Shown in pieces: positions 1,053 through 41,949 of a stretch of 64,000 nt of DNA. The position numbers and the translations under genes were made by a program. The notes below the pieces were generated by a model. The model was given only the letters and a program-made list of their open reading frames with translations, made no database searches and had not been told where the DNA came from. The DNA is from Polyangium spumosum. GTDB taxonomy: Bacteria > Myxococcota_A > Polyangia > Polyangiales > Polyangiaceae. The DNA lies in assembly GCF_009649845.1 (NCBI RefSeq), contig NZ_WJIE01000005.1, forward strand, positions 620,001 to 684,000. Direction: 5' to 3'. The number at the start of each line of letters is the position of its first letter. Position 1 is the stretch's first letter.

Positions 1053-3632
1053 ATGCCGGAGGACCCTGTGGACGGATCAGCGAAGCTCGACGCGTACCGG
1101 AAAAAGCGTGATCCCGGGCAAACGCCCGAGCCCTTCGCCGCCCCCGCCGGCTCGCCCGGCGAGACGACGGAGGGCGCGTACGTCGTGCACCTGCACGACG
1201 CTCGCCGCCGCCATTACGACCTGCGCCTCGAGGTGGGCGGCGCGCTCGAGAGTTTCTCCGTGCCGAAGGGCCCCACGCTCCATCCGGGCGAGCGCCGCCT
1301 CGCCGTCCGCACCGAGCCGCACCCGATCGAATATCTGCATTTCGAGGACGTCATCCCCGAGGGCAATTACGGTGCCGGCCCCATGATCGCCTGGGACACC
1401 GGTAGCGTCCGGTACCTGGGCGAACCTGCCGAAGAACAGTTACGCAAGGGCAAACTCGAGTTCGAGCTCTCGGGCCACAAGCTCCACGGCCGCTTCCTCC
1501 TGGTCCGCCTGAAGGACTCCGAGAAAGACTGGCTCCTCTTCAAGAAACACGACGCCTTCGCGGATCCCGGCCGCGACATCGTCCAGGAAAAACCTCGCTC
1601 CGTCCTCTCCGGCCTCGACGTCGCCGAGCTCGGCCACGCGAAGGACATCGAGGGCGAGCTCCTCTCCCGCGCCGAGGCCCTCGGCGCCCCCACGGGTTCC
1701 ATCGAGACGAACATGGTCCCCATGCGCGCCTGCCCCGCCCCGAAGGGCTCGCTCGGCTCGGACTACGTCTTCGAGCTCAAGCTGGACGGCGTCCGCTGCA
1801 TTGCCCGGAAAAACGGCTCGGACGTCCTCCTCCAGTCGCGCACCCTCCGCGACGTCTCGCGTGTCTATCCCGAGGTCGCGCGCGCCGTGCACAAACTCCC
1901 CGCCGCCCGCCTCGTCCTCGACGGCGAGCTCATCGCCCTCGACCAGGCCGGGCAGCCGAGCTTCCAGCGCCTCGCCCAGCGCATCCACCTCGCGAGGGGC
2001 GCCGACATCCGCCGCGCCGAGGTCCGGCTCCCCGTCCTTTACGTGGTCTTCGACCTGCTCGCCATCGGCGACCGCGACCTGCGCCGCCTCCCCCTCCACG
2101 CCCGCAAAGAGCTCCTCCATCACCTCGTCCGCGCGCCCGGCGAGATTCGCTCCCTCGACATGATCGAGGGCGACCCCACGATGCTCCTCGATTTCTGCCG
2201 CGAGCGCCGGATGGAAGGCCTCGTCGCCAAGCGGCGCGACGCCCCCTATCGCCCCGGCCCCGCGCGTTCGTACGACTGGATCAAGCTCAAGTGCGAGCGC
2301 GACGACGATTTCGTGGTCGTGGGGTATACCCTCGGCGAAGGCGCCCGCGCCCGGCTCGGCGCGCTCGACGTCGCCGCCTTCGAGGCCGGCGAGCTCCGCT
2401 ACCGCGGCAAGGTCGGCAGCGGCCTCGACGCCGATTCCATCGAGGCCCTGCTCGCGCGCCTCGACCCCTCGCGCACGGACAAACCCACCGCCGGGGGCGC
2501 TTACAACGCCGCGCCGCGCGGACGCGTCCACGTCCGGCCCGAGCTCGTCGTCTCCGTGCGTTTTTCCGGGTACACCGACGAGGGCAACCTGCGCTTCCCG
2601 GTTTTTCGCGGGATCCGGGACGACGTCGCGCCCGAGGAGTGCGTGGCCTCGCCGCACGCCGATCGTGAGGAGAGCGAAATCGAGCGCCTCGCGGCCGAGT
2701 CCGCCCACGCGGGCGCCGCCGCGGCCGGGCCGAGCAAGATCCCCGTCAGCAACCCCGACAAGGTCCTCTTCCCCGCGGACGGCATCACGAAGCGCGACAT
2801 CGCCGATTATTACGCCGCCGTTGCGCCCGTCCTCCTGCCGCACCTCCGCGACCGGCCGGTGATGCTCGTGCGTTACCCCGACGGCATCACCGGCAAGTTT
2901 TTTTATCAATGGAACGTCCCCGCCGGCCTGCCCGACTGGGTGCCCACGCTCCGCGTCCGCTTGCCGGGCCGCGAGGAGGAAATGGAGGTCTTCCACATCC
3001 GCGACGAGGCCACCCTCCTCCTTGTCGCGAGCCTCGGCGCGATCCCCATTCACGTGATCGCCTCCCGCGTCCCGCACCTCGAGCAGGCCGATTTCCTCAA
3101 CATCGACCTCGACATCAGCGGCGGGACGTTCTCCCATGTCCTCACCCTCGCGCGCTCGCTGAAGGACCTGCTCGATCGGATCGGCCTCACCGGTTTTCCC
3201 AAGACGAGCGGCCAGTCCGGCCTGCACGTCTTCGTCCCGCTCGGCCCCGATATCTCCTACGAGACGGCGCGCGCCCTCGCCGATCTGCTCGGCCACATGC
3301 TCGTCCGCGAGCACCCGGACATCGCCACCATGGAGCGCTCGAAGGCGCGCCGCGGCCCTCGCGTCTATGTTGATACTGGACAAACCGGCGCATCCCGCAC
3401 CATCGTCGCCCCGTACGCCGTACGCGCCGTCCAGGGTGCGCGCGTCTCCACGCCGCTCGGCTGGGACGAGGTCGACGCGTCGCTCGATCCCCGCGCCTTC
3501 GACATTCGCACGGTCCCCCGCCGCGTGGCGCGCACCTTCGACCCGATGGCAGCGCTGCTCACGGAGACCCCCGCCGTGCTCGCGGCCATCGAGCGGCTCG
3601 GAAAGCTCGCCCTCGGCCGCCACGTCGCTTGA
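1053..3632 (+). CDS. ligD: LigD, multifunctional ATP-dependent DNA ligase of NHEJ
   Basis: This 859-residue repair enzyme processes and seals ends delivered by Ku. Domain order is phosphoesterase, ligase, polymerase (PE-LIG-POL, the Pseudomonas order; mycobacteria have POL first). The PE domain has HLHDARRRHYDLRLE at about residues 46-60. The ligase motif I is ELKLDGVR, with nucleotidyl-lysine K243. The primase-like POL domain starts near residue 564 (PVSNPDKVLFP) and keeps the DLD metal site and the KTSGQSGLHV segment. The frame is open far upstream, but that part is antisense to ku; the ATG at 1053 gives the normal length. It is divergent from ku. Confidence 0.96.
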   Translation: MPEDPVDGSAKLDAYRKKRDPGQTPEPFAAPAGSPGETTEGAYVVHLHDARRRHYDLRLEVGGALESFSVPKGPTLHPGERRLAVRTEPHPIEYLHFEDVIPEGNYGAGPMIAWDTGSVRYLGEPAEEQLRKGKLEFELSGHKLHGRFLLVRLKDSEKDWLLFKKHDAFADPGRDIVQEKPRSVLSGLDVAELGHAKDIEGELLSRAEALGAPTGSIETNMVPMRACPAPKGSLGSDYVFELKLDGVRCIARKNGSDVLLQSRTLRDVSRVYPEVARAVHKLPAARLVLDGELIALDQAGQPSFQRLAQRIHLARGADIRRAEVRLPVLYVVFDLLAIGDRDLRRLPLHARKELLHHLVRAPGEIRSLDMIEGDPTMLLDFCRERRMEGLVAKRRDAPYRPGPARSYDWIKLKCERDDDFVVVGYTLGEGARARLGALDVAAFEAGELRYRGKVGSGLDADSIEALLARLDPSRTDKPTAGGAYNAAPRGRVHVRPELVVSVRFSGYTDEGNLRFPVFRGIRDDVAPEECVASPHADREESEIERLAAESAHAGAAAAGPSKIPVSNPDKVLFPADGITKRDIADYYAAVAPVLLPHLRDRPVMLVRYPDGITGKFFYQWNVPAGLPDWVPTLRVRLPGREEEMEVFHIRDEATLLLVASLGAIPIHVIASRVPHLEQADFLNIDLDISGGTFSHVLTLARSLKDLLDRIGLTGFPKTSGQSGLHVFVPLGPDISYETARALADLLGHMLVREHPDIATMERSKARRGPRVYVDTGQTGASRTIVAPYAVRAVQGARVSTPLGWDEVDASLDPRAFDIRTVPRRVARTFDPMAALLTETPAVLAAIERLGKLALGRHVA

Positions 3633-32831: not shown

Positions 32832-34751
32832 TCACTCGCCCTTCCACTCCGTCCGCTGCACCACCGGGAGCTGGAGCGCGCGCTCGCGATCGAGGTCGAG
32901 CGAGCCGAGGTGGATCGCCAGCGGCGATTGCACCCACTTGAAGATCGATTGCGTGAACAGGCGCGCGAACTTGTCCGCCCACGCGGCGAGCGCCGCCGGA
33001 TCCCGCTCGGGGAAGACGCTCGTCAAGGCGCGCGCCACCTCGTTCGGCGCGAGCTTCTCCGCGCCGTAGAGGTAGAGGCAAGCGTCGAGCACCTCGAAGG
33101 GCATGAGCTCGGCCTCGCCCGATTGGTTCGCCGCGAGCTCGGGGCCCGCCGTGGTGTCCAGCGTGGCGCGGATGCCCGGATGGCCGAACCGCTTCTCCAG
33201 CCGCTCGAGCAGCGCGATGACCACGGTCTTCGGCAGGTTCGCGATCACGCTGAAGGCGCCCTCCAGGTCCCCGCCGACGGTCGTGTAGCCGAGCGCCTTT
33301 TCGCTCATGTTGCCGGTCTGCAAGAAGAGCGCGCCGCTCGTGTTCGACCAGTTCCACATGCGCTGGCCACGAATACGCGCCTGCACGTTCTGCTTCGTGA
33401 GCTCGGTCGGCTCGGGCCCGTCCGGACCGAGCAGCGTGCGCGTGGCGTCGAGCTCGCGCACGAACGCGTCCTCGATCGGCACGACCATGAACGAGACGCC
33501 GAGGTCGGCGCAGATCCGCGCGGCCGCGTTCTGCGTGGCGTCGCTCGAGTATCGTGACGGCATGTAAAACGCGCTGATCATCGAGCCCGCCTTCTCGCGC
33601 AGGGCCGCGCCCTCGAGCTCGGGGTGGAGCAGCTCCGCGGCGCGATGCGCGACGAGCAGGGTGAGCAGCGAGTCACGCCCGCCCGAGAGCGCGAGGCCAA
33701 TACGACGGAACGCGCCCGTCTTGCGATAATAGTCGGCGACGCCGAGCGCGAGCGCGTCGTGGAAATCGTCGAGCAGCTCGTCGCGGGGCGTCTTCGCCGG
33801 CAAGCTCGCCGCGGGCAAGAAGAACGAGGTCCCCGGCGGAGGCGCGGGATATCGGAGCTTCGAGCGATCGGCCGTCTTCTCGGGCAACACGTACACGTGC
33901 ACGGGCTCCTGCTCGCGCCGGAAGGCCTCGAGGTCGCTCCGCCAGGTGCTCGCCTCGCGCCGGCATCGAATGGTGCGATCGAGGTCGACGACCGTCGCCG
34001 CGTAGCCCTCGCGGAACCGCGGCGCCTCCAGCATCGGGCGGCCATTCTGGTTGACGAACCCGCCGCCGTCGAAGACGAGCCCGTCGTTGGCGCCGACGAG
34101 GTTCGCATAAGCGATCGTGCACTGGTTGTCCGAGGCGCGCGTGGCGATCATCTCGCGCCGCGTGCCCACGACGCCCGCGCGGAACGGCGAGGCCGAGAGG
34201 TTGCAGACGATCTCCGCGCCCGAATAACAGCGCCGCCGCATCGGGCCGTCGGGCGACCAGATGTCCTCGCAGACCTCGATCGCGAGCGTGCCGAAATCGA
34301 ACTGGAAGATCCGATCGCCGCAGAACACGCCACGCGTCTCGAGCTCCATGCCCGGCACGCCGCGGGAGAAGACACGCGACTCGTAGAAGACGTTGTACGT
34401 CGGCAGCTTCTCCTTCGGCACGAACGCGATGATCTCGCCGCGGTGCACGAGGGCGCCGACGTTGAAGAGGTCGCCTTCGACGCCCACGGTCAGGCCGAGG
34501 ACGAAGACCGTGGGCAGGCGCGTGGTCTCCGCGGCGAAGCGCTCGAGCTCGCGCCGCTGGCTGTCGACGAAGGCCTGCCACTGCACGAGGTCCTCCGCCG
34601 CGTACCCGCCGACGACCTGCTCGGGGAACACCGCGAGCGTGACGTCGTCCTCGGCCATCGCGGATGCCAGGCGAATGCACCGATCCACGTTCGAGCGGAC
34701 GGCGCCGACCGTCGCGTTCACACTGGCCACCCCGATCTTGACGAGCCTCAT
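32832..34751 (-). CDS. nadE: Glutamine-dependent NAD+ synthetase
   Basis: A 639-residue enzyme that makes NAD+ from deamido-NAD+, ATP and glutamine. The N-terminal nitrilase-type glutaminase keeps the Glu-Lys-Cys triad (E44 in FPEQ, K113 before the LPTYN segment, C161 in EVCEDIW). The synthetase domain has the PP-loop LSGGRDSLLT and GNMSEKALGYTTVGGDLEGA. Both half-reactions therefore look active, with ammonia tunnelled internally. The start is the family start MRLVKIGVASVN. It is a single gene. Confidence 0.95.
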   Translation of the reverse strand: MRLVKIGVASVNATVGAVRSNVDRCIRLASAMAEDDVTLAVFPEQVVGGYAAEDLVQWQAFVDSQRRELERFAAETTRLPTVFVLGLTVGVEGDLFNVGALVHRGEIIAFVPKEKLPTYNVFYESRVFSRGVPGMELETRGVFCGDRIFQFDFGTLAIEVCEDIWSPDGPMRRRCYSGAEIVCNLSASPFRAGVVGTRREMIATRASDNQCTIAYANLVGANDGLVFDGGGFVNQNGRPMLEAPRFREGYAATVVDLDRTIRCRREASTWRSDLEAFRREQEPVHVYVLPEKTADRSKLRYPAPPPGTSFFLPAASLPAKTPRDELLDDFHDALALGVADYYRKTGAFRRIGLALSGGRDSLLTLLVAHRAAELLHPELEGAALREKAGSMISAFYMPSRYSSDATQNAAARICADLGVSFMVVPIEDAFVRELDATRTLLGPDGPEPTELTKQNVQARIRGQRMWNWSNTSGALFLQTGNMSEKALGYTTVGGDLEGAFSVIANLPKTVVIALLERLEKRFGHPGIRATLDTTAGPELAANQSGEAELMPFEVLDACLYLYGAEKLAPNEVARALTSVFPERDPAALAAWADKFARLFTQSIFKWVQSPLAIHLGSLDLDRERALQLPVVQRTEWKGE

Positions 34752-36137: not shown

Positions 36138-36267
36138 CGAACCCCGAAGGTCTCGCCCACGCGTCTCCAGGTCTCGCCCACGCGTCTCAAAGTCTCGTGC
36201 GACCGCCTCGAAGGTGAGCGAACGAACCCCGAAGGTCTCGCCCACGCGTCTCCAGGTCTCGCCCACG
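36138..36267. repeat. 45-bp exact direct repeat in an 85-bp duplication
   Basis: The 45 bp at 36138-36182 recur without change at 36223-36267, 85 bp apart. Each copy contains GTCTCGCCCACGCGTCTCCA. More diverged GTCTCGAAGTCTCG units precede them (36098-36137). They fill the 36031-36417 gap between the lipoprotein and the island genes; no gene is seen there. Confidence 0.8.
36175..36211. repeat. Left 37-bp direct repeat of the island
   Basis: It begins CGCCCACGCGTCTC and ends GTGCGACCGCCTCGA. It matches 40938-40974 in the same orientation at 36 of 37 positions (A/G at position 15). It overlaps the first 45-bp repeat. Confidence 0.7.
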
Positions 36268-36272
36268 GGTCC

Positions 36273-36288
36273 TGATCAAACTTGATCA
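36273..36288. promoter_or_regulatory. TGATCAA palindrome near the left island end
   Basis: TGATCAA and TTGATCA flank 2 nt. The related CTTGATCAG occurs twice (40905-40913, 40925-40933) just inside the right repeat, suggesting a shared protein-binding site. Confidence 0.4.
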
Positions 36289-36417
36289 GCCGGTTCGGCG
36301 CGACGAACGCGCGAGCCTCCCGTCGAGCCCCCTCCGATGTCCGGCGAGGTGGGCGTGTGTCCTTCCTGAACATGCGCCGCGGACTCCGGGGTGGCGGACA
36401 TCCTACTCCTCGCATAC

Positions 36418-36696
36418 ATGTCCGACACCTACCTCATCCACCTCGACGACAAGGGCAACGCCGTCAGGACCCCCATCACGCCGGAGCAGATCCCGACCGA
36501 GGACGAACAACGTCGCCTGATCGAGGTGTACAAGGCGCGCGGTCTCTTGCTTTGGTGGTCCGTTTGCGCGGACGGGCGCGGGGTCCGCGTCACGGTTGAG
36601 GACGAGCATGCCGCGGTCATGGTTCCCATCTTCCGCGATGGGCGCGTCGCCGCGTACGTCAACGAATCCCGAGTCGCCACTCTTCCATGTGTTTGA
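36418..36696 (+). CDS. Small orphan protein at the island left side
   Basis: A 92-residue soluble protein starting MSDTYLIHLDDKGNAVRTPI, with mixed strands and one helix (EDEQRRLIEVYKARGLLLWW). I recognise no family. Its last 38 nt overlap the 3' end of the opposite-strand gene 36659-37039. The same tail-to-tail pattern recurs at 38438-38653 / 38601-39119 on the other side of the transposase. Confidence 0.5.
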   Translation: MSDTYLIHLDDKGNAVRTPITPEQIPTEDEQRRLIEVYKARGLLLWWSVCADGRGVRVTVEDEHAAVMVPIFRDGRVAAYVNESRVATLPCV

Positions 36697-37039
36697 ACAC
36701 CGCTTGCGACGCCTTCAGGACGAACGCGTCTTTATCGCCGTTCGGGAGCAGCACGGCACCAAGGCACTCGAATTGGAATGCATTGCCGTCCATGCGGGTC
36801 GCAAGCACCTCGACGTGTACGGCAAGCGTGAACTTGTCCGGCTTACAACGCAAGCAAACCCGATACGCGTTATCGCTGAACAAAACACAATTCTTCGCCA
36901 ACAACCGACCGTCGCCGACTTCGCCGTTGTAGCCCGAAACCCGAATGTCGTGCTCTGCGTGAGGGTCGCGAATAGCATACGCGATACGGTAGGCGATGTT
37001 GAGAAGGTCCGAACAGAGGTGGTCTTCATCTGTGGGCAT
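36659..37039 (-). CDS. Orphan protein, A+T-richer than its surroundings
   Basis: A 126-residue soluble protein (start MPTDEDHLCSDLLNIAYRI): an N-terminal helix, then a beta-rich stretch (CVLFSDNAYRVCLRC, TLAVHVEVLATRM) and a final helix (ASQAVFKHMEEW). No family is recognised. Codon use is more relaxed than in neighbouring genes, consistent with transfer. The start ATG 37039 is preferred over 37096. Its overall layout (helix, antiparallel strands, helix) is similar to 38601-39119, though I cannot show homology. Confidence 0.5.
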   Translation of the reverse strand: MPTDEDHLCSDLLNIAYRIAYAIRDPHAEHDIRVSGYNGEVGDGRLLAKNCVLFSDNAYRVCLRCKPDKFTLAVHVEVLATRMDGNAFQFECLGAVLLPNGDKDAFVLKASQAVFKHMEEWRLGIR

Positions 37040-37114
37040 GATCGCCGTCCTACCGACGCACGAAACGCGAGGCCAACTTCTCGCCCCGAACCCCATCGTC
37101 CGACGACGTTCTTA

Positions 37115-37137
37115 CCTAGGACAATTCATGTCCTAGG
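37115..37137. promoter_or_regulatory. Perfect 9-bp inverted repeat before the transposase
   Basis: CCTAGGACA and TGTCCTAGG flank ATTCA. It lies 76 nt upstream of the start of 36659-37039 and 138 nt upstream of the chosen transposase start, in the divergent control region. It is an operator or recombination-site candidate. Confidence 0.5.
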
Positions 37138-37275
37138 CCATTGCCGAATATCCACGAATTCCCGACGAATCGTGATAGATTCATCCCATCGAGTGAGCCG
37201 CTGAAACGGTCGAGCCGACGACGCGCATGGGGCGCGACGCGGCGCCCGTGGCGGCCCTTCGTCGGGATCCACGTC

Positions 37276-38406
37276 GTGGCGAACGTCCTGCCCATCGAGA
37301 AGCGCACCGACGTGGTGAAGCACCTCGTAGAGGGTGCCAGCGTTCGCGCAACGTCGCGGCTCACGGACGTGTCCCTTCCGACGGTCCTGTCCACGCTCGT
37401 CCGCGTCGGCGCGGGGTGCGACAACCTCCACAACCTGCTCGTGAGGGACCTCGACATCCGCGAGATCCAGCTCGATGAAATCTGGTCGTACGTGCAGAAA
37501 AAGCAGGCGCGCGTGACCGCGGAGGATCCCGCCGAGTTCGGCGACGCGTACGCCTACCTCGCCATGGCGCGGACGAAGAAGCTCCTGATCGCCTACCGCG
37601 TGGGGAAGCGGGACGAGGCGAACACGCGGGCGTTCGTGGCCGACCTCCGCGCCCGGCTCGTGACGATCCCGGAGCTGTCCACGGACGGCTGGCAGAGCTA
37701 CCCCGTCGCCGTCGGGCAGAGCTTCGGCGGCGCGGTGGACCACGCCGTGATCCACAAGGACTACTCGAAGAAGGGGCGGCGCGAGGGGCCGGCGGACCAT
37801 CGCTACGAGCCCCCGCGCGATCCGTTCATCACGAAGAAGACCGCGCACGGTGCGCCGAACCTCGACCGCGCGAGCACGTCTCACGTCGAGCGGGCGAACC
37901 TCACGGTCCGGATGCACGTCCGCCGGTTCACCCGGCTTTGCAACGGCTTCTCGAAGAAGATCGAGAACCACCGCGCCGCCGTGAGCCTGCACGTCGCCTG
38001 GTATAACTTCTGCCGCGTCCACGAGAGCTTGCGCGTGACGCCGGCCATGGAGGCGGGGATCACGGATCACGTCTGGTCCGTGCAGGAGCTTGTCGAGCGC
38101 GCCCTTGCGGCGGAGCCGTGCGCGCCTCCGGAGCCGAAGAAGCTCGCGCCGCCCGCACCGGCCCCGGGCGAGAAGCAGGGCGGCGCCCGCGAGCTGCCGA
38201 ACGGCAAGGGATGGCTCCGCGCCCTGCCCGGCGGGAAGGGCAAGCCGAGCGAGGCTCCGCGGGCACCTACGCCGCCCGCCGCGCCACCGGCGAGGGCCGG
38301 GACGGAGGAGTCGCCGCCCCAGCCACTTCCGCCACCGGGGACGCAGCTTGACCTGTTCGCGTGGCGGCCGCGGGAGAGGCAGTTGAGCCTGTTTCCGGAC
38401 GGGTGA
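37276..38406 (+). CDS. IS1-family-type DDE transposase with C-terminal clamp motifs
   Basis: A 376-residue transposase starting (GTG) at the usual family N-terminus, VANVLPIEKRTDVVKHLVEG. An HTH (ASVRATSRLTDVSLPTVLST) is followed by the DDE core: D67 in QLDEIW, D137 in STDGWQSY, E205 in SHVERANLT, and the family-typical RRFTRLCNGFSKKIENH and YNFCRVHESLRVTPAM. Residues 278-355 are a Pro/Ala/Gly-rich tail, then QLDLF (357-361) and QLSLF (369-373), both matching the beta-clamp-binding consensus. A TTG at 37141 in frame could extend it by 45 residues. No terminal inverted repeats were found. Confidence 0.85.
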   Translation: MANVLPIEKRTDVVKHLVEGASVRATSRLTDVSLPTVLSTLVRVGAGCDNLHNLLVRDLDIREIQLDEIWSYVQKKQARVTAEDPAEFGDAYAYLAMARTKKLLIAYRVGKRDEANTRAFVADLRARLVTIPELSTDGWQSYPVAVGQSFGGAVDHAVIHKDYSKKGRREGPADHRYEPPRDPFITKKTAHGAPNLDRASTSHVERANLTVRMHVRRFTRLCNGFSKKIENHRAAVSLHVAWYNFCRVHESLRVTPAMEAGITDHVWSVQELVERALAAEPCAPPEPKKLAPPAPAPGEKQGGARELPNGKGWLRALPGGKGKPSEAPRAPTPPAAPPARAGTEESPPQPLPPPGTQLDLFAWRPRERQLSLFPDG

Positions 38407-38409
38407 ATG

Positions 38410-38425
38410 TGGCACGGCGCGTGCT
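38410..38425 (+). promoter_or_regulatory. Weak sigma-54-like promoter match
   Basis: TGGCACGGCGCGTGCT has GG and GC with the 10-nt spacing of -24/-12 promoters, one mismatch in the -12 element. It is 13 nt before the ATG of 38438-38653, so the transcript would be nearly leaderless; this lowers confidence. Confidence 0.25.
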
Positions 38426-38437
38426 AAGTTACCGTGT

Positions 38438-38653
38438 ATGCACACTCCGCGCTTGCCGATGCTGCCCGCCGACCACGAACAGCCGGATAGGGACAACGCG
38501 CTGCCGATATACAACGAACACAAACGCATTATCGGCTATTCACCGCACCACAACCCGAGCGAGTGTTATCCGCTCGTCATAAACGGGCTCGTTATGGGGT
38601 TCATCTATCCTTCCACGCGTCATCCCGAGCCTTGCGCGCAAAGTATTCAATAA
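38438..38653 (+). CDS. Small orphan protein after the transposase
   Basis: A 71-residue protein (MHTPRLPMLPADHEQPDRDN) with a hydrophobic stretch (YPLVINGLVMGFIYP) that is too short and polar for a confident membrane helix. It is A+T-richer than the window average. Its last 53 nt overlap the 3' end of 38601-39119 on the other strand. No family is recognised; it could be non-coding. Confidence 0.4.
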   Translation: MHTPRLPMLPADHEQPDRDNALPIYNEHKRIIGYSPHHNPSECYPLVINGLVMGFIYPSTRHPEPCAQSIQ

Positions 38654-39119
38654 TTCTCTTGGCCGTGTCTTTTGCAGCAACATCCATTGCGGCAGGAGCA
38701 TGGATGTCAAACTCCTCATTGTGCGGTCCACTCGCGGTAGACGTGACCCACAACAGTTTCCATTTGTAACTGCCATCTCCGACTGCGGTGGCGCGCATTC
38801 GCAAGTCAATTTTCGCGGTGCATGCACGTTCGCGGTCATAGCGATCCATCAAAAACTCTGCTTCAATGCAGAAGCGAGCTACGCCCTCATACGAGACCGC
38901 AATTTCGCCATTCTTTGCATACGCTTCGTCGTTCGCTCGCTCTATACGTGCAAGACGCCAACTGCCGGGCACACCGAGACGAGTGCAAAGCTCACTTGCC
39001 ACATGATTAGCGGCATCTAGCGCTGAACCGCGCAGCCGATTCCACTGCTGAAACGCGGTATTGTATGATGTTACGATTTGGGAATGTAGTTCCGACACGC
39101 GTCTATACCTCCAAAGCAA
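38601..39119 (-). CDS. Orphan protein with A+T-rich codon use
   Basis: A protein of up to 172 residues, soluble, with an N-terminal helical part (SYNTAFQQWNRLRGSALDAA), a beta-rich centre (ARFCIEAEFLMDRYD, KIDLRMRATAVGDGSYKWKL) and a C-terminal charged helix (DTAKRIIEYFARKAR). No family is recognised. There is no ATG start: the frame opens with TTG at 39119 or GTG at 39098. Palindromes (39121-39177) lie directly upstream. Codon bias differs from the host, suggesting acquisition. Confidence 0.5.
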   Translation of the reverse strand: MLWRYRRVSELHSQIVTSYNTAFQQWNRLRGSALDAANHVASELCTRLGVPGSWRLARIERANDEAYAKNGEIAVSYEGVARFCIEAEFLMDRYDRERACTAKIDLRMRATAVGDGSYKWKLLWVTSTASGPHNEEFDIHAPAAMDVAAKDTAKRIIEYFARKARDDAWKDR

Positions 39120-39120
39120 A

Positions 39121-39177
39121 CGCTACCGATGTAGCGCGCTATGCCGCAACCCGGAGCGTATGCGCCGGGCGCATACG
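39121..39177. promoter_or_regulatory. Cluster of three nested inverted repeats
   Basis: CGCTAC/GTAGCG around CGAT (39121-39136), the palindrome TAGCGCGCTA (39132-39141), and CGTATGCGCC / GGCGCATACG around one G (39157-39177). They lie just upstream of the 38601-39119 start and downstream of the sigma-like gene, so they may be operators or a terminator. The rest of 39120-39290 is empty. Confidence 0.5.
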
Positions 39178-39290
39178 AGCACGCGTGACGGGCTTTCAGA
39201 TGTGCAATGCGCCGTGAAAGGCGCTGGGGGCGGGACGGTCCTGGACGGAAGAGCAGGCGAGCGCCACCGGAGTAGGCGGCGCTCGTCCGT

Positions 39291-39869
39291 TCAGCGGCGG
39301 CGCTTCCTGGGGCGGTCGTAGCGCTTAGCGAGCGCGTTGCGGGCCCGCGCGACGTGGCTGTAAACGGTCGCGACGTCGAGCCCCAGCTCGCGGGCGATGT
39401 CTTCCGCGCTCTCCCCTTGCAGGACGAGCAGAAGGACGCGCACCGGCCGGGCCGTCGAGCGCGCGATGCTTCGCAGGAGGTGCCGGGCCTCTGCGATGTC
39501 CTCCGGACGCGCCGCGAGATCGGGCAGGTCGCGATCGTGCTCCTCGCCGATCGGCACGTGGCGAGCGTCCTTCCGGCGCAGCCGAGCGGCTTGGTTGCCC
39601 GCGACGCGCCACGCGATGTTCACGAGGAGCGAGCGGATCACGACGTCGGGCGGGTCGGTGTACGCGCCGCGTACGCGCCCCTCGTCCACCATGCGCCAAA
39701 GGACGTAGAGCGCGTCCTGCGTCACCTCGTCCACGTCCGCCTCGCCGAGCACGGGCCACTTCGCGCGGAGGTATGCGCGGGCGAAACCGCGGTACGTGTT
39801 CAGGTCACGCGGCGTGGCTTCGATGATCGGCTCGCCCGGACGATCGGGATCGTCGCGGTAGCGGATCAC
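39291..39869 (-). CDS. Sigma-70-like (ECF-type) factor
   Basis: A 192-residue protein starting with GTG. It has a sigma-2-like region (YLRAKWPVLGEADVDEVTQD, DALYVLWRM, VIRSLLVNIAWRVAGNQ) and a sigma-4 HTH (LVLQGESAEDIARELGLD, VATVYSHVARARNALAKRY). The tail is Arg/Lys-rich. It is last in an operon; its GTG overlaps the stop of the HTH gene before it by 4 nt. It probably directs RNA polymerase to island promoters, or is a DNA-binding regulator derived from an ECF factor. No anti-sigma gene is adjacent. Confidence 0.8.
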   Translation of the reverse strand: MIRYRDDPDRPGEPIIEATPRDLNTYRGFARAYLRAKWPVLGEADVDEVTQDALYVLWRMVDEGRVRGAYTDPPDVVIRSLLVNIAWRVAGNQAARLRRKDARHVPIGEEHDRDLPDLAARPEDIAEARHLLRSIARSTARPVRVLLLVLQGESAEDIARELGLDVATVYSHVARARNALAKRYDRPRKRRR

Positions 39870-40135
39870 GGCCCACCTCCGCGGACCAGGGCGTCGAGAT
39901 CGACGTCGAGCGCGTGCGCGACGCACGTGGCGAAGTGCAGCGTGCAGGCGAGCTGCCCGCGGAGGAACGCCTGCACGTACATCGGCGCGTAGCCGATCGC
40001 GTCGGCCATCTGCCACAAGCCGCGCGAGGCGACGACGGGCGCGAGGGCTCGACGCACGCGATCGGCCTGCTCGGTCGAGAGCACCGGGGGGAGGCTGTCG
40101 GGGGTTTTGTCGTGGTCCTGGTCGTGCTCGCTCAC
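39866..40135 (-). CDS. Small HTH protein, third of three paralogues
   Basis: An 89-residue protein starting with GTG (VSEHDQDHDKT). The segment QADRVRRALAPVVASRGLWQ, then MADAIGYAPMYVQAFLRGQL and AHALDVDLDALVRG, has the XRE/Cro-like layout also seen in the two genes upstream. It overlaps both neighbours by 4 nt (GTGA). It is probably a DNA-binding regulator. Confidence 0.65.
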   Translation of the reverse strand: MSEHDQDHDKTPDSLPPVLSTEQADRVRRALAPVVASRGLWQMADAIGYAPMYVQAFLRGQLACTLHFATCVAHALDVDLDALVRGGGP

Positions 40136-40437
40136 GAGGCGCCTCCCTTCCGCTTCGGGGGCGTCACGAGGACCAGGGCGGGCGCCTTGCGGGGCGACGC
40201 CTTGCCCGTGAGGGCGTCGTCGAGCGACAAGCCCACGGTGCGCGCGATGCTCCGCGCGAGGGCCATGTGCCCGGGCTCGATCCCGTCCATGAATGCGAGC
40301 ACGACCGAGCGCCGGAAGCTCACGGCGTGAGCCACGGCGATCCACGTGCCCTTCTCGCGGAAGAGGTGACGCAGGAGGGCGCGGAGGTTCGCCCGCTGGA
40401 TCTCGATCAAGCCGCCGGGGTAGAGGGGAGCGGCCAT
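40132..40437 (-). CDS. Small HTH protein, second of three paralogues
   Basis: A 101-residue protein. The core NLRALLRHLFREKGTWIAVA, HAVSFRRSVVLAFMDGIEPG, ARSIARTVGLSLDDALTG aligns by eye with the other two small proteins, and ends in the same L-x-x-x-L-T-G box as the first. The tail is basic (PPKRKGG). It starts at ATG 40437 or the adjacent GTG 40440; the latter would repeat the GTGA overlap used elsewhere in the operon. XRE-like regulator. Confidence 0.65.
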   Translation of the reverse strand: MAAPLYPGGLIEIQRANLRALLRHLFREKGTWIAVAHAVSFRRSVVLAFMDGIEPGHMALARSIARTVGLSLDDALTGKASPRKAPALVLVTPPKRKGGAS

Positions 40438-40769
40438 CACAACGCGCCTCCCTTCCGCCCGCAGAGCGCGCACGCGCCGGCCACGTGGGGACGCCCGGTG
40501 AGGACCTGTTCGACGGGGATGCCCGCGGCGCGGGCGAGAAGCACGGCCACGGCGTAGGACGTCCGCTGCCCGGCTTGGATGAGCGTGGTTCGGTGGACGC
40601 CCACGACCGCGGCCAGGACGTCGAGCCCGCCGTAGGCGCGGGCGACGTTGCGGATCGTGGCGCGGATCCGCTTGCGTTCTTCGGACGTGGGGAGGAGGTT
40701 CGGGCTCTTCCGGCCCTTGGGCGGACGAGTCCCTTGGCCCCGCGGGGCAGGGTGGACTAAACGAAGCAT
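40437..40769 (-). CDS. Small HTH protein, first of three paralogues
   Basis: A 110-residue protein (MLRLVHPAPRGQG). A basic N-terminus precedes the XRE-like core IRATIRNVARAYGGLDVLAA, VVGVHRTTLIQAGQRTSYAV, LLARAAGIPVEQVLTG, and a C-terminal CALCG that could bind metal. It leads the HTH-HTH-HTH-sigma operon, with GGAG 9 nt before the ATG and a strong hairpin in the leader. It is a likely DNA-binding regulator; paralogy to the next two genes is by eye. Confidence 0.65.
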   Translation of the reverse strand: MLRLVHPAPRGQGTRPPKGRKSPNLLPTSEERKRIRATIRNVARAYGGLDVLAAVVGVHRTTLIQAGQRTSYAVAVLLARAAGIPVEQVLTGRPHVAGACALCGRKGGAL

Positions 40770-40807
40770 GGGTTGCGACTCCGGCTGATACGGGGTTGCG
40801 GCCAAGT

Positions 40808-40839
40808 CGCCCCGCTGGGTTTCCAGACCCTTCGGGGCG
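40808..40839 (-). promoter_or_regulatory. Hairpin in the leader of the HTH-sigma operon
   Basis: CGCCCCG, CT mismatch, GGGT, loop TTCCAG, ACCC, TT mismatch, CGGGGCG: a near-perfect 32-nt stem-loop 39 nt upstream of the first HTH gene. It may be an operator or a transcript structure. Confidence 0.45.
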
Positions 40840-40904
40840 GCGCCTTGTTCAGGCCCGCCGAACCTACGCGCCGAAATCGCGCATTGCTACGGCCGATCGC
40901 GAAC

Positions 40905-40974
40905 CTTGATCAGTCGGGCCCGATCTTGATCAGCACCCGCCCACGCGTCTCGAAGTCTCGTGCGACCGCCTCGA
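40905..40974. repeat. Right island repeat and paired CTTGATCAG motifs
   Basis: CTTGATCAG occurs at 40905-40913 and 40925-40933, 20 bp apart. The 37-bp direct repeat at 40938-40974 matches 36175-36211 with one mismatch. Together they mark the right end of the candidate island, 25 nt before the stop of the next lipoprotein gene. Confidence 0.7.
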
Positions 40975-40998
40975 CGTCACGCGCAGGCGCCTCCCACC

Positions 40999-41949
40999 TC
41001 AACGAGGCATGAAGGTCTCGGCGAGCGTGAGCAGCCGATCGATCTCGGCCTGCGTCAGGTGCAGGTCGCTCTTCACCTGCGAACCCTCGGCGCGGAACAC
41101 GACGGGCGCGAAGAGGCGCACCTTCACGATGCCGAGGTTCAGCGAGGTGGCCCGGTCGATCGACGAGGTGAGCGCCGCCGCGTCCACGCTCGCCTGCGCC
41201 GGATCGGCGCTCTCGCCCGTGGCCGAGACGTCGACGCCGCCATCCGCGGCGAGGCGCAAGCGCGCGACCGACGAGCGGATCGTCGGCGGCACGGGCGGCG
41301 CTTGCGAGCCCGCGAGGCTACGCGAAGGATCGAGGGCCGTGGCGACGACAGCCTCCGGGCCCTCAGGGTCGGGGAACCCCCCCGTGCCCTCGAAGCGACC
41401 AGCCTGCGAGGCGAGCGACTCCGGCAGGATCGCGAGGAAGCCGTCCTCGACGATGGAGACGACGCGGGTTTGTCCCTTCACCGTGACACGCGCCGAGGGC
41501 ACGCTCGCCGCCTCGATCCACGCGCCGGGCGGCTGGCTGCGCGCGATCATCGCGTGCAGGCCCTGGCGCGTCTGCTGCTCGTCGAGCTTGTGTTGCACGA
41601 TCGCGACCGCGAGGTCGTCACGCGTCGCGCCGGTCGAGGCGACGTAAGCCGCGACGACGTCGCCGGTCGCGTCGATGCCCGTGCCTTCGAGCATGGCGCG
41701 GAGCGGGTTCATCGCGCGGACGCGGACCTCGAGCGGGTGGCCCCGGAGCCGCTCGGCCCAGACCATCACGCCGATACGCGCGTTCACGATCGAGCGCGCG
41801 ATCTCGGCGGCGTTTTTGGGCCGGGGCGCAGGGGGCGCGGCCGCTTCGAGGGGCTGCTCTTGCGACGCGCAACCTGCGAGCGCAAATGACGCGAGGGGCG
41901 ACGCGACGAGCGCCAAAAGCAGGACGGCCGAACGGGAGCGCCTCGTCAC
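40999..41949 (-). CDS. Hypothetical lipoprotein
   Basis: A 316-residue lipoprotein (lipobox LAGC, Cys27) starting with GTG. The mature part after a short Pro/Ala linker is a mixed alpha/beta fold of unknown family, with segments such as VNARIGVMVWAERLRGHPLE and ATRDDLAVAIVQHKLDEQQT, suggesting an outer-membrane or periplasmic binding role. No repeats or catalytic motif are seen. It is divergent from the phosphofructokinase gene (47 nt). Confidence 0.7.
   Translation of the reverse strand: MTRRSRSAVLLLALVASPLASFALAGCASQEQPLEAAAPPAPRPKNAAEIARSIVNARIGVMVWAERLRGHPLEVRVRAMNPLRAMLEGTGIDATGDVVAAYVASTGATRDDLAVAIVQHKLDEQQTRQGLHAMIARSQPPGAWIEAASVPSARVTVKGQTRVVSIVEDGFLAILPESLASQAGRFEGTGGFPDPEGPEAVVATALDPSRSLAGSQAPPVPPTIRSSVARLRLAADGGVDVSATGESADPAQASVDAAALTSSIDRATSLNLGIVKVRLFAPVVFRAEGSQVKSDLHLTQAEIDRLLTLAETFMPR

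Follow-up and report, generated by a model that had tools for sequence, protein, structure and literature searches.

Control of small DDE transposons is usually ascribed to weak promoters, to frameshifts or to antisense RNA. IS1 elements have ends that begin with GGT and duplicate 8-9 bp, and classical IS1 encodes two overlapping frames, insA and insB', with a frameshift. The conjugative element Tn916 is moved by a tyrosine recombinase. The gene coordinates given in PMC9137128 place a 4-nt overlap between its orf7 (2367-2789) and its orf8 (2786-3016).

Here, we describe a locus of Polyangium spumosum in which three small HTH genes (HTH1, HTH2 and HTH3) precede an ECF-type sigma-factor-like gene. 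The window is the whole stretch of DNA that was analyzed, 64,000 nucleotides in length. A preliminary description had reported this operon at 39291-40769, and its gene coordinates, protein sizes of 89-110 residues and overlaps of 1-4 nt are correct. Based on comparison of copies, the operon is nearly certainly the left part of a larger unit, a transposon (Table 1). The "island" proposed in the preliminary description is real: it is a transposon, recognizable by its ends and target duplications, which had been missed around the operon. Our search of the open-access literature found no description of this transposon with its HTH-sigma operon.

Table 1. Features of the transposon and its flanks, in window coordinates
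Feature	Position	Strand	Remarks
8-bp target-site duplication CGCCCACG, left flank	40938-40945	.	exact match of right-flank copy
Whole transposon	36268-40937	-	4,670 bp; HTH-sigma operon at left end; inverted ends and 8-bp duplication
Left terminal repeat	40904-40937	-	TGATCA core, second copy 20 bp further in
Leader hairpin	40806-40843	-	compensatory changes among 18 elements
HTH1	40437-40769	-	110 aa
HTH2	40132-40437 or 40440	-	101 aa from ATG; 102 aa if GTG at 40440
HTH3	39866-40135	-	89 aa
ECF-type sigma-factor-like gene	39291-39869	-	192 aa; Sigma70_r4_2 above cut-off
Block 3' of sigma stop	39121-39290	-	89% identical in L054 and L060
Palindrome GTATGCGCCCGGCGCATAC	39158-39176	-	within post-sigma block; right half only shared
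Variable cargo ORF	38601-39098	-	~165 aa; 3' of sigma; no Pfam match
Small ORF	38438-38653	+	71 aa; just 3' of transposase
IS1-like DDE transposase	37276-38406	+	376 aa from GTG start; convergent to operon
Dyad CCTAGGACAATTCATGTCCTAGG	37115-37137	.	upstream of transposase start; core GACA-N5-TGTC
Variable cargo ORF (MPTDEDH...)	36659-37039	-	no Pfam match (36662-37030 scanned)
Variable cargo ORF	36391-36696	+	101 aa; no Pfam match
Right terminal repeat	36268-36297	-	two TGATCA copies; CTGATCAAGTTTGATCAGGACC on element strand
8-bp target-site duplication CGCCCACG, right flank	36260-36267	.	exact match of left-flank copy

Transposon boundaries and transposase

The left edge of homology between copies is sharp, which supports the boundary of the 4,670-bp unit, and the last 118 bp of its right end share 93% identity with copy L040. 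The inverted ends of the window transposon are GGTnCTGATCAA. Both ends have the form GG[TC]NN[CT]G in all 33 complete elements, which were drawn from loci selected by sigma or transposase matches, versus 0/410 random centers (pair <6 kb). Chance end pairs occurred in 1/114 shuffled loci, under a tighter rule than the main ends search, and at 12/200 and 20/410 random centers in real DNA. An Rfam search over 36200-41100 yielded no match.

The transposase contains a DDE_Tnp_IS1 domain (PF03400; 36.2 bits vs a cut-off of 24.1) and matches the NCBIfam IS1 equivalog NF033558 at E 1.1e-17, with 64.7 bits, below the cut-off of 100. Among 15 plasmid relatives of the transposase, four carry an IS1 family annotation. 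A Pfam scan of eight proteins of the window element (all but the product of the 71-aa ORF) identified the DDE transposase, with nothing matching a recombinase or a transfer protein. The transposase lies convergently downstream of sigma in 22 of 23 sigma loci. By eye, several other copies also have small ORFs in the same place 3' of the transposase.

HTH and sigma genes

The HTH1/HTH2 junction, GTGATG, gives a 4-nt overlap with the GTG start and a 1-nt overlap with the ATG, and the other two junctions (CGTGAG and CGTGAT) are 4-nt overlaps. An RBS-like stretch, GAAGGGAGGCG, precedes HTH2 and HTH3 inside the end of the preceding gene, where it encodes a C-terminal RKGGA. As the preliminary description held, the three HTH proteins are paralogues: family profiles built from 17 three-HTH loci are homologous over ~70 residues (hhalign probability 94.9-97.2%). 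In the window, HTH1 and HTH2 have the L-T-G box noted earlier, yet this is not a family trait, as relatives mostly have L-S-G, L-A-G or none.

None of the HTH proteins matched the XRE (Cro/CI) family models above cut-off; the best XRE-type sequence match was HTH3 to CYNS_N (20 bits vs a cut-off of 27.1). The predicted model of HTH2 (mean pLDDT 69) has five helices in a Cro/CI-like arrangement, and its top Foldseek matches are XRE-type proteins (probability up to 1.00, best E 0.08). In HTH1, the recognition-helix segment has a pN of 0.463 vs 0.096 in the rest of the gene (~5x) with similar pS; this compares 10 copies of the MLRLVHP class, L038 excluded, which are related, so that it does not amount to a formal test of selection.

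The sigma protein of the window matches region 4 (PF08281, 34.5 bits vs a cut-off of 25.7), with no Pfam match to region 2, and TIGR02937 spans residues 27-183 at 30.5 bits, below its cut-off of 42.9. The family profile aligns with CnrH (profile positions 29-177, CnrH residues 33-184, E 3.2e-10). Structure prediction for sigma was of poor quality (mean pLDDT 58), and many sigma copies have a basic C-terminal tail. No match to sigma was found in the phage records searched at E 1e-3.

Recurrence and variation among copies

Recurrence of the gene order had been set beforehand as the test of the preliminary description. The order HTH1-HTH2-HTH3-sigma was found at 18/23 sigma loci and in 6/6 Polyangium genomes searched, and both transposon ends were found at 17 of these 23 loci. 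The 23 exclude two weaker own-genome sigma matches (L009 and L010); L055 is counted as three-HTH though unparsed by the gene-chain script, and L059, cut by a contig end, is also unparsed. As a single query against genome contigs, the window sigma found three loci, all in Polyangium. Each genome has several element copies, with copy numbers that are lower bounds from up to 56 candidates per genome scored in one scan and up to 17 in another.

Elements with three HTH genes are 3.7-5.8 kb long (14 elements). Relatives form a series, from HTH alone to one, two or three HTH genes plus sigma, which fits the earlier term "graded". Five further transposase loci (L086, L092, L094, L100 and L101) had neither an HTH match nor ends; L092, L094 and L101 are near contig ends, and L086 and L100 are not. 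Among 20 cargo proteins, three matched Pfam above cut-off, as XRE (L060), DUF4747 (L084) and PIN (L090), three matched only below it (L052, L087 and L130), and 14 had no match at E 0.01.

Leader, palindromes and candidate control sites

The leader hairpin in the preliminary description is real, as reflected in compensatory changes. Six pairs are altered on both sides, compared to 0/500 shuffles, for a structure hand-drawn from these same sequences; RNAalifold gave the hairpin no covariation bonus (+0.06) and showed two-sided changes in 3/9 pairs. Elements with GGTnCTGATCAA ends have a nearly constant leader, whereas their HTH1 varies. By eye, a 5-nt variable stretch of the leader seemed to track HTH3 class in these elements (AATA/AATCA-type, 0/6 vs 5/6); this comparison is post hoc, tiny and not evidence.

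Palindromes, placed by the preliminary description beyond the far end of the operon, are present after sigma and before the transposase. The first is complete only in the window among five aligned copies. It lies in a post-sigma block that is alike in L054 and L060 despite their different sigma genes, and by eye this block includes a terminator-like hairpin. The core of the second, GACA-N5-TGTC, occurs near the transposase 5' end in 25/33 elements and is absent in 8/33, based on a search with a fixed core in which only the outer arm letters and the spacer could vary. The preliminary description had proposed that the HTH proteins bind operators of the island. Since this second palindrome also occurs in HTH1-only elements, without HTH2, HTH3 and sigma, and does not follow the HTH1 variable segment, it is probably not an operator of these HTH proteins, and we do not take this as the leading reading. 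The TGATCA end repeats were likewise set aside as HTH operators, because, by eye, each end group has an inner repeat that duplicates its own terminal repeat, which fits transposase binding better. Neither an operator for the HTH proteins nor a promoter dependent on sigma was identified in the elements.

The sigma factor had also been proposed to drive island promoters. Upstream of the transposase, sigma-bearing and sigma-less elements have short stretches in common (56-65 bp, 79-85%), so sigma is probably unneeded for the transposase promoter, and we set aside sigma driving the transposase. Its own operon or the cargo may still be served.

Proposed control and alternative explanations

We read the locus as a copy of a passenger-carrying IS1-like transposon family of Polyangium and its operon as an element-borne control operon; in the latter our confidence is about even. 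The HTH proteins would act as repressors by which the element keeps itself quiet, and copies would differ in DNA specificity through the diversified recognition segment of their HTH1, which would insulate them from one another. The gene overlaps suggest that the HTH genes and sigma share an mRNA; sigma, as the last gene, would be made only when the operon is open. It would then guide RNA polymerase to promoters of the element, the likeliest being those of its own operon, of the cargo or of both. Expression of the operon may also be tuned at the RNA level by the leader hairpin. Together, these parts would form a self-contained on/off control that the transposon carries along. A nearly constant leader alongside a varying HTH1 is awkward for this model if HTH1 binds the leader.

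A stronger version, in which each copy has a "private" circuit made of duplicated CI-like repressors, one with a diversifying recognition helix, plus its own sigma, is rather doubtful. If true, many related copies could coexist without cross-repression, in what would be the transposon equivalent of phage immunity groups, and the repressor set would have grown from one to three genes inside one bacterial family.

Alternatively, the operon may itself be cargo. In that case, a chromosomal ECF-sigma regulatory unit that stood free and had a leader of its own was captured by an IS1-like transposon, and it regulates host or cargo genes, not transposition. In another genus (g19) of the bacterial family, 19 of 20 fetched loci with related sigma genes have no transposase nearby, and 9 of these 19 have leader sequence in common with the element operons. 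Sigma is missing from 13/33 elements, and its classes differ between elements otherwise alike in HTH and transposase DNA, both of which suit capture. So do element-type loci elsewhere in the phylum: none of eight complete-element loci from other Myxococcota families has an HTH1-type match, and thus the element type does not need HTH1. However, within the taxonomic order of the window, an HTH1-type gene is present at the left end of 33/33 complete elements parsed, although their cargos are many and different; this has the look of an element function. We consider capture somewhat unlikely.

The element could also have lost mobility, leaving the transposase, HTH and sigma genes as a domesticated regulatory cassette spread by homologous recombination. 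Cargo and sigma segments do vary between copies with common flanking segments, and among 18 own-genome transposase matches, four have an inner stop and one is a fragment. However, D67, D137 and E205, which we take by motif to be the catalytic triad, are invariant in 14/14 aligned transposases. Exact 8-bp duplications that differ from site to site, with intact ends, also argue for transposition, as does the same flanking gene in five other genomes, which has no HTH1 within 1.5 kb, i.e., the element is absent there. Target sites of the family often fall within short tandem-repeat tracts; the 32 sites include same-locus neighbors (three in L041, two in L044) and so are not all independent. A domesticated cassette is improbable.

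That the HTH proteins are antitoxins, in a module of toxin-antitoxin-like or anti-phage type, is very improbable: HTH1 weakly matches the Xre-MbcA-ParS middle domain (E 0.031) and HTH3 an HI1420-type antidote (E 0.011), but both matches are under curated cut-offs, and no conserved partner gene was seen besides sigma and the transposase, with cargo varying per copy.

Comparison with known systems

In contrast to the usual control of small DDE transposons, this transposon of about 4-6 kb pairs a dedicated sigma with an expanding set of paralogous repressor-like proteins. Its regulators and cargo vary per copy like exchangeable parts. It also accounts for the multicopy "sigma plus HTH" loci of Polyangium, which would otherwise pass for host regulators. 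If the circuit works as we infer, the family offers a natural set of sigma/repressor variants with diversified specificities, as well as a route to studying how multi-copy mobile elements avoid cross-talk.

The Polyangium element resembles the IS1 family in its DDE_Tnp_IS1 domain, ends beginning with GGT and 8-bp duplications, but carries a regulatory operon and variable cargo. Unlike classical IS1, its transposase is a single open frame, both in the window and in 13 of the 18 own-genome matches, with a long C-terminal part, and scores below the NCBIfam IS1 equivalog cut-off. The sigma family profile matches CnrH, an ECF sigma factor like SigE and SigL; unlike these, the Polyangium sigma sits on a transposon behind HTH genes. 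The predicted HTH2 structure is nearest to restriction-modification controller proteins and CI-type repressors in the PDB (ClgR, C.BclI, DdrO and P22 C2), though with a best Foldseek E of 0.08 and identities of 17-28% among the top 15 matches. By gene content, the locus is like Tn916 (orf9 HTH, orf7 sigma-70-like, orf8 HTH), also a mobile element with HTH and sigma-70-family genes; it differs in being moved by a DDE transposase and in having three paralogous HTH genes ahead of sigma. By analogy, our best reading is that the operon may work like the Tn916 sigma/HTH genes, on unrelated machinery.

The operon is carried by an IS1-like transposon

The preliminary description took the HTH-sigma operon as its unit. 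The operon stands, but the unit is larger, almost certainly a transposon with defined ends and a flanking 8-bp duplication. Among copies, DNA similarity starts sharply about 1,650 bp ahead of the sigma stop, ends at that stop (or at the sigma start in copies with a different sigma class), and returns over the transposase gene. An inverted end match with a flanking 8-bp direct repeat was first found in three copies. A scan for GGTnCTGATCAA ends gave exact 8-bp duplications at 10 of 23 sigma loci; that of locus L057 fits when shifted by one base. A motif-free search, based on an exact 8-bp direct repeat and inverted ends starting GG and matching at 11 or more of 13 positions, added elements with other end types, and the two scans combined place both ends at 17 of the 23 loci, counting L057. 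Of 410 random centres placed in these loci, 20 yield a chance pair under the motif-free rule, while ends of the form GG[TC]NN[CT]G less than 6 kb apart occur at 0/410 random centres versus 33/33 elements.

Features of the window element and its flanking genes
Feature	Position	Strand	Remark
Element	36268-40937		duplication CGCCCACG on both sides
IS1-like transposase gene	37276-38406	+	window copy
Sigma-like gene	39291-39869	-	last gene of the chain
HTH3	39866-40135	-	third gene
HTH2	40132-40437	-	second gene
HTH1	40437-40769	-	first of four chained genes
Gene adjoining the element	40999-41949
Gene across the element	32832-34751		presumably NAD-synthase-like

The window element splits a tandem repeat, and its rejoined flanks rebuild a repeat unit found nearby. 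The adjoining gene is present in all six Polyangium genomes; of these, the host alone has HTH1 within 1.5 kb of that gene. In Polyangium sp. y55x31, its counterpart directly adjoins that of the gene across the element. In the other four genomes, the latter gene was not found within 1.5 kb of the former, so these genomes demonstrate absence of the element only, not an unchanged site. For 20 of the 32 insertion sites, the surrounding tract exceeds the 95th percentile of 1,106 background windows in repetitiveness (Mann-Whitney p = 2e-14, the sites not all being independent). As read from its ends and flanks, the element has moved in the past.

At locus L041 (2723-12031), three family elements lie in a row (HTH-only, two HTH genes plus sigma, HTH-only). 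All three are flanked by the identical 8-bp duplication CTACGACG, so copies of one short repeat have probably served as the target more than once.

Gene products and leader of the operon

HTH1, HTH2, HTH3, and sigma overlap by 1-4 nt at every junction, and HTH2 and HTH3 each have a ribosome-binding-site-like stretch within the preceding gene (C-terminal RKGGA = CGG AAG GGA GGC). Family profiles of the three HTH proteins, each built from 17 loci, align with one another over ~70 residues (hhalign probability 94.9-97.2%, E 4.3e-8 to 3.9e-11); by this profile evidence they are therefore paralogues. Both the overlapping chain and the paralogous trio of the preliminary description are thus borne out. 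HTH1-3 matched no Pfam or NCBIfam model above cut-off; among PHROGs families, no match was better than E 0.09. Predicted from an alignment of four sequences, the HTH2 structure contains five helices (mean pLDDT 69) and has its best PDB matches among Cro/CI-type regulators (ClgR, C.BclI, DdrO), at E 0.08 or worse. The sigma protein has Sigma70 region 4 above cut-off, and a profile built from 21 relatives hits CnrH (E 3.2e-10 over profile positions 29-177) as well as other ECF sigma factors; since its structure model is poor (mean pLDDT 58), its identity is taken from sequence.

Across 10 copies of one class, the most variable 13-residue window of HTH1 has pN 0.463 and pS 0.391, versus 0.096 and 0.356 in the rest of the protein. 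In the alignment, this segment falls on helix 3 (43-50) of the HTH2 model; in Cro/CI proteins, the third helix is the recognition helix. By these substitution measures, the segment has diversified.

The hairpin upstream of HTH1, already noted in the preliminary description, holds up across copies. Over 18 elements, 13 pairs were counted in a structure drawn from the same sequences that were scored; 86.7% of cells are paired, and both sides have changed in six pairs. The covariation score is 0.154, versus 0.041 in shuffles (0/500 reach it); with the structure slid, it does not exceed 0.065. Further pair types are less clear-cut (17/500 shuffles as high), and two pairs are unpaired in 11/18 and 7/18 rows. 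An independent RNAalifold fold recovers nine of the pairs, without a covariation bonus (+0.06), and Rfam gave no match. On this alignment, the leader structure is conserved.

A family of elements with a growing regulator set

The host genome holds 10 sigma matches at E <= 1e-3. Among the host genome and 58 related ones (59 in all, up to 56 candidates scored in each), matches at E <= 1e-8 fall in six, all six of genus Polyangium, including Polyangium fumosum DSM 14668 and Polyangium sp. y55x31, at no fewer than 23 loci. Three HTH genes precede sigma at 18 of the 23 (17 parsed by chain analysis, plus L055), with all six genomes represented, so that the gene order recurs, the test proposed for it at the outset. 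Two HTH genes precede sigma at L041, L043, and L038, the second being longer at L038, and none at L051; L059 is interrupted by a contig end. The IS1-like transposase gene is convergent downstream of sigma at every locus except L051 (22/23). Transposase matches at E <= 1e-30 number at least 17, 1, 7, 2, 6, and 5 in the six genomes (up to 30 candidates scored in each). A sigma profile matched 29 of 183 genomes of the order at E <= 1e-12, with the best match outside Polyangium not better than 4e-26.

Using ends from both scans, we parsed 33 complete elements, all with an HTH1-type gene: 14 carry three HTH genes and sigma; three carry two and sigma (L038, L041, L043); three, from other genera of the family, carry one and sigma (L085 in genome G036; L087 and L088 in G023); and 13 carry HTH without sigma. 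Judged by gene content, this is an element family with a growing regulator set. Five transposase loci (L086, L092, L094, L100, L101) have neither HTH nor ends, three of them near contig ends.

The transposase query matched 14 of the 59 related genomes at E <= 1e-30, and a 14-row alignment query matched 14 of 188 phylum genomes at E <= 1e-50. Inverted ends and an 8-bp duplication surround the transposase at 8 of 13 further phylum loci; an HTH1-type match was seen at 0/13. Related transposases occur in 15 plasmid records; the three examined, from alphaproteobacteria, all have such ends, with an HTH-annotated gene inside them in two. This survey indicates a wide transposon type, within which the HTH1-type gene was observed in the order to which the window belongs, and the form with three HTH genes and sigma in Polyangium only. 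One of the 13 phylum loci, L130 (6871-9746; another Myxococcota family), has a weak sigma-like ORF within the ends of the same transposon type and no HTH1-type match, possibly an independent capture.

HTH-only element L044a has, at 518-769, a conserved 82-85-aa ORF (MKRSRVRERERLRAPVETTDPAALA...) that overlaps the HTH stop by 4 nt, as do L096, L097, and L098 at the same place; it is perhaps a counterpart of HTH2/HTH3/sigma. HTH3-like genes without transposase (L042, L045, L046; host genome) and the transposase-less sigma relative at L051 (genome G001) are perhaps remnants or recruited copies.

Modular make-up and cargo

Both the stretch between sigma and transposase and the one from transposase to right end vary in content among copies. 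Loci L054 and L060 share the first 154 bp after sigma (88%) and 1,143 bp of cargo (91% identity), and differ in the DNA between. The window sigma shares 81% identity with that of L037 and 78% with that of L050, two loci with other ends, whereas the window HTH genes, transposase, and ends group with GGTnCTGATCAA elements. By these alignments, copies are of mixed make-up. A Pfam scan of 20 cargo proteins gave three with a match above cut-off: one canonical XRE protein, one with DUF4747, and one with a PIN domain. A 269-aa cargo ORF at L043 (6819-7625, minus strand), whose start (MTIVICGVVPDGVVLGADSR) by eye resembles an Ntn-hydrolase or proteasome-type protein, has no Pfam match.

Proposed working of the operon

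We propose that the HTH proteins act as repressors at element promoters, with targets specific to each copy; that sigma, last on the same mRNA, would open element promoters (of its own operon and/or the cargo) once repression fails; and that the leader hairpin may set the expression level. Regulation of the element or its cargo by the operon is moderately probable; for the full repressor/sigma circuit, with its putative operators and sigma promoters, we see the chances as evenly balanced.

Of the 33 elements, 25 have the dyad GACA-N5-TGTC close to the 5' end of the transposase gene, and 26 of the dyad's 40 occurrences in 657 kb of loci fall within 136 kb of elements. Since HTH1-only elements also have it, the transposase, a host factor, or an RNA hairpin is a likelier partner than the HTH proteins. 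Upstream of the transposase, sigma-bearing and sigma-less elements have 56-65 bp stretches that are 79-85% alike, which counts against sigma being needed there.

Alternatively, the operon could be a captured free-standing ECF-sigma unit, unconnected with transposition control. Its main support comes from g19, another genus of the family, where 19 of 20 fetched sigma loci lack a nearby transposase (L119 is an element) and the leader of 9 of these 19 aligns with the element operon leader. Such free-standing loci with aligning leaders suggest that leader and sigma are an older regulatory unit later acquired by the transposon. Four g19 loci (L105, L106, L108, L113) have, by eye, a phage-type integrase-like ORF upstream of free-standing sigma relatives; at several there is also an HTH gene in divergent orientation, together with a downstream partner that recurs.

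Comparison with known systems

The preliminary description knew of no module of this form, and literature searches among open-access papers likewise gave, by title, no described transposon that matches. Transposase domain, ends, and duplication length place the element on the IS1 side among DDE elements, although the window transposase falls short of one curated cut-off for the IS1 family. By analogy, the HTH-sigma operon would work most like the regulatory segment of Tn916. The likeness lies in sigma-70-like and HTH genes standing together, as orf7 does with orf9 and orf8 in Tn916 (PMC9137128).
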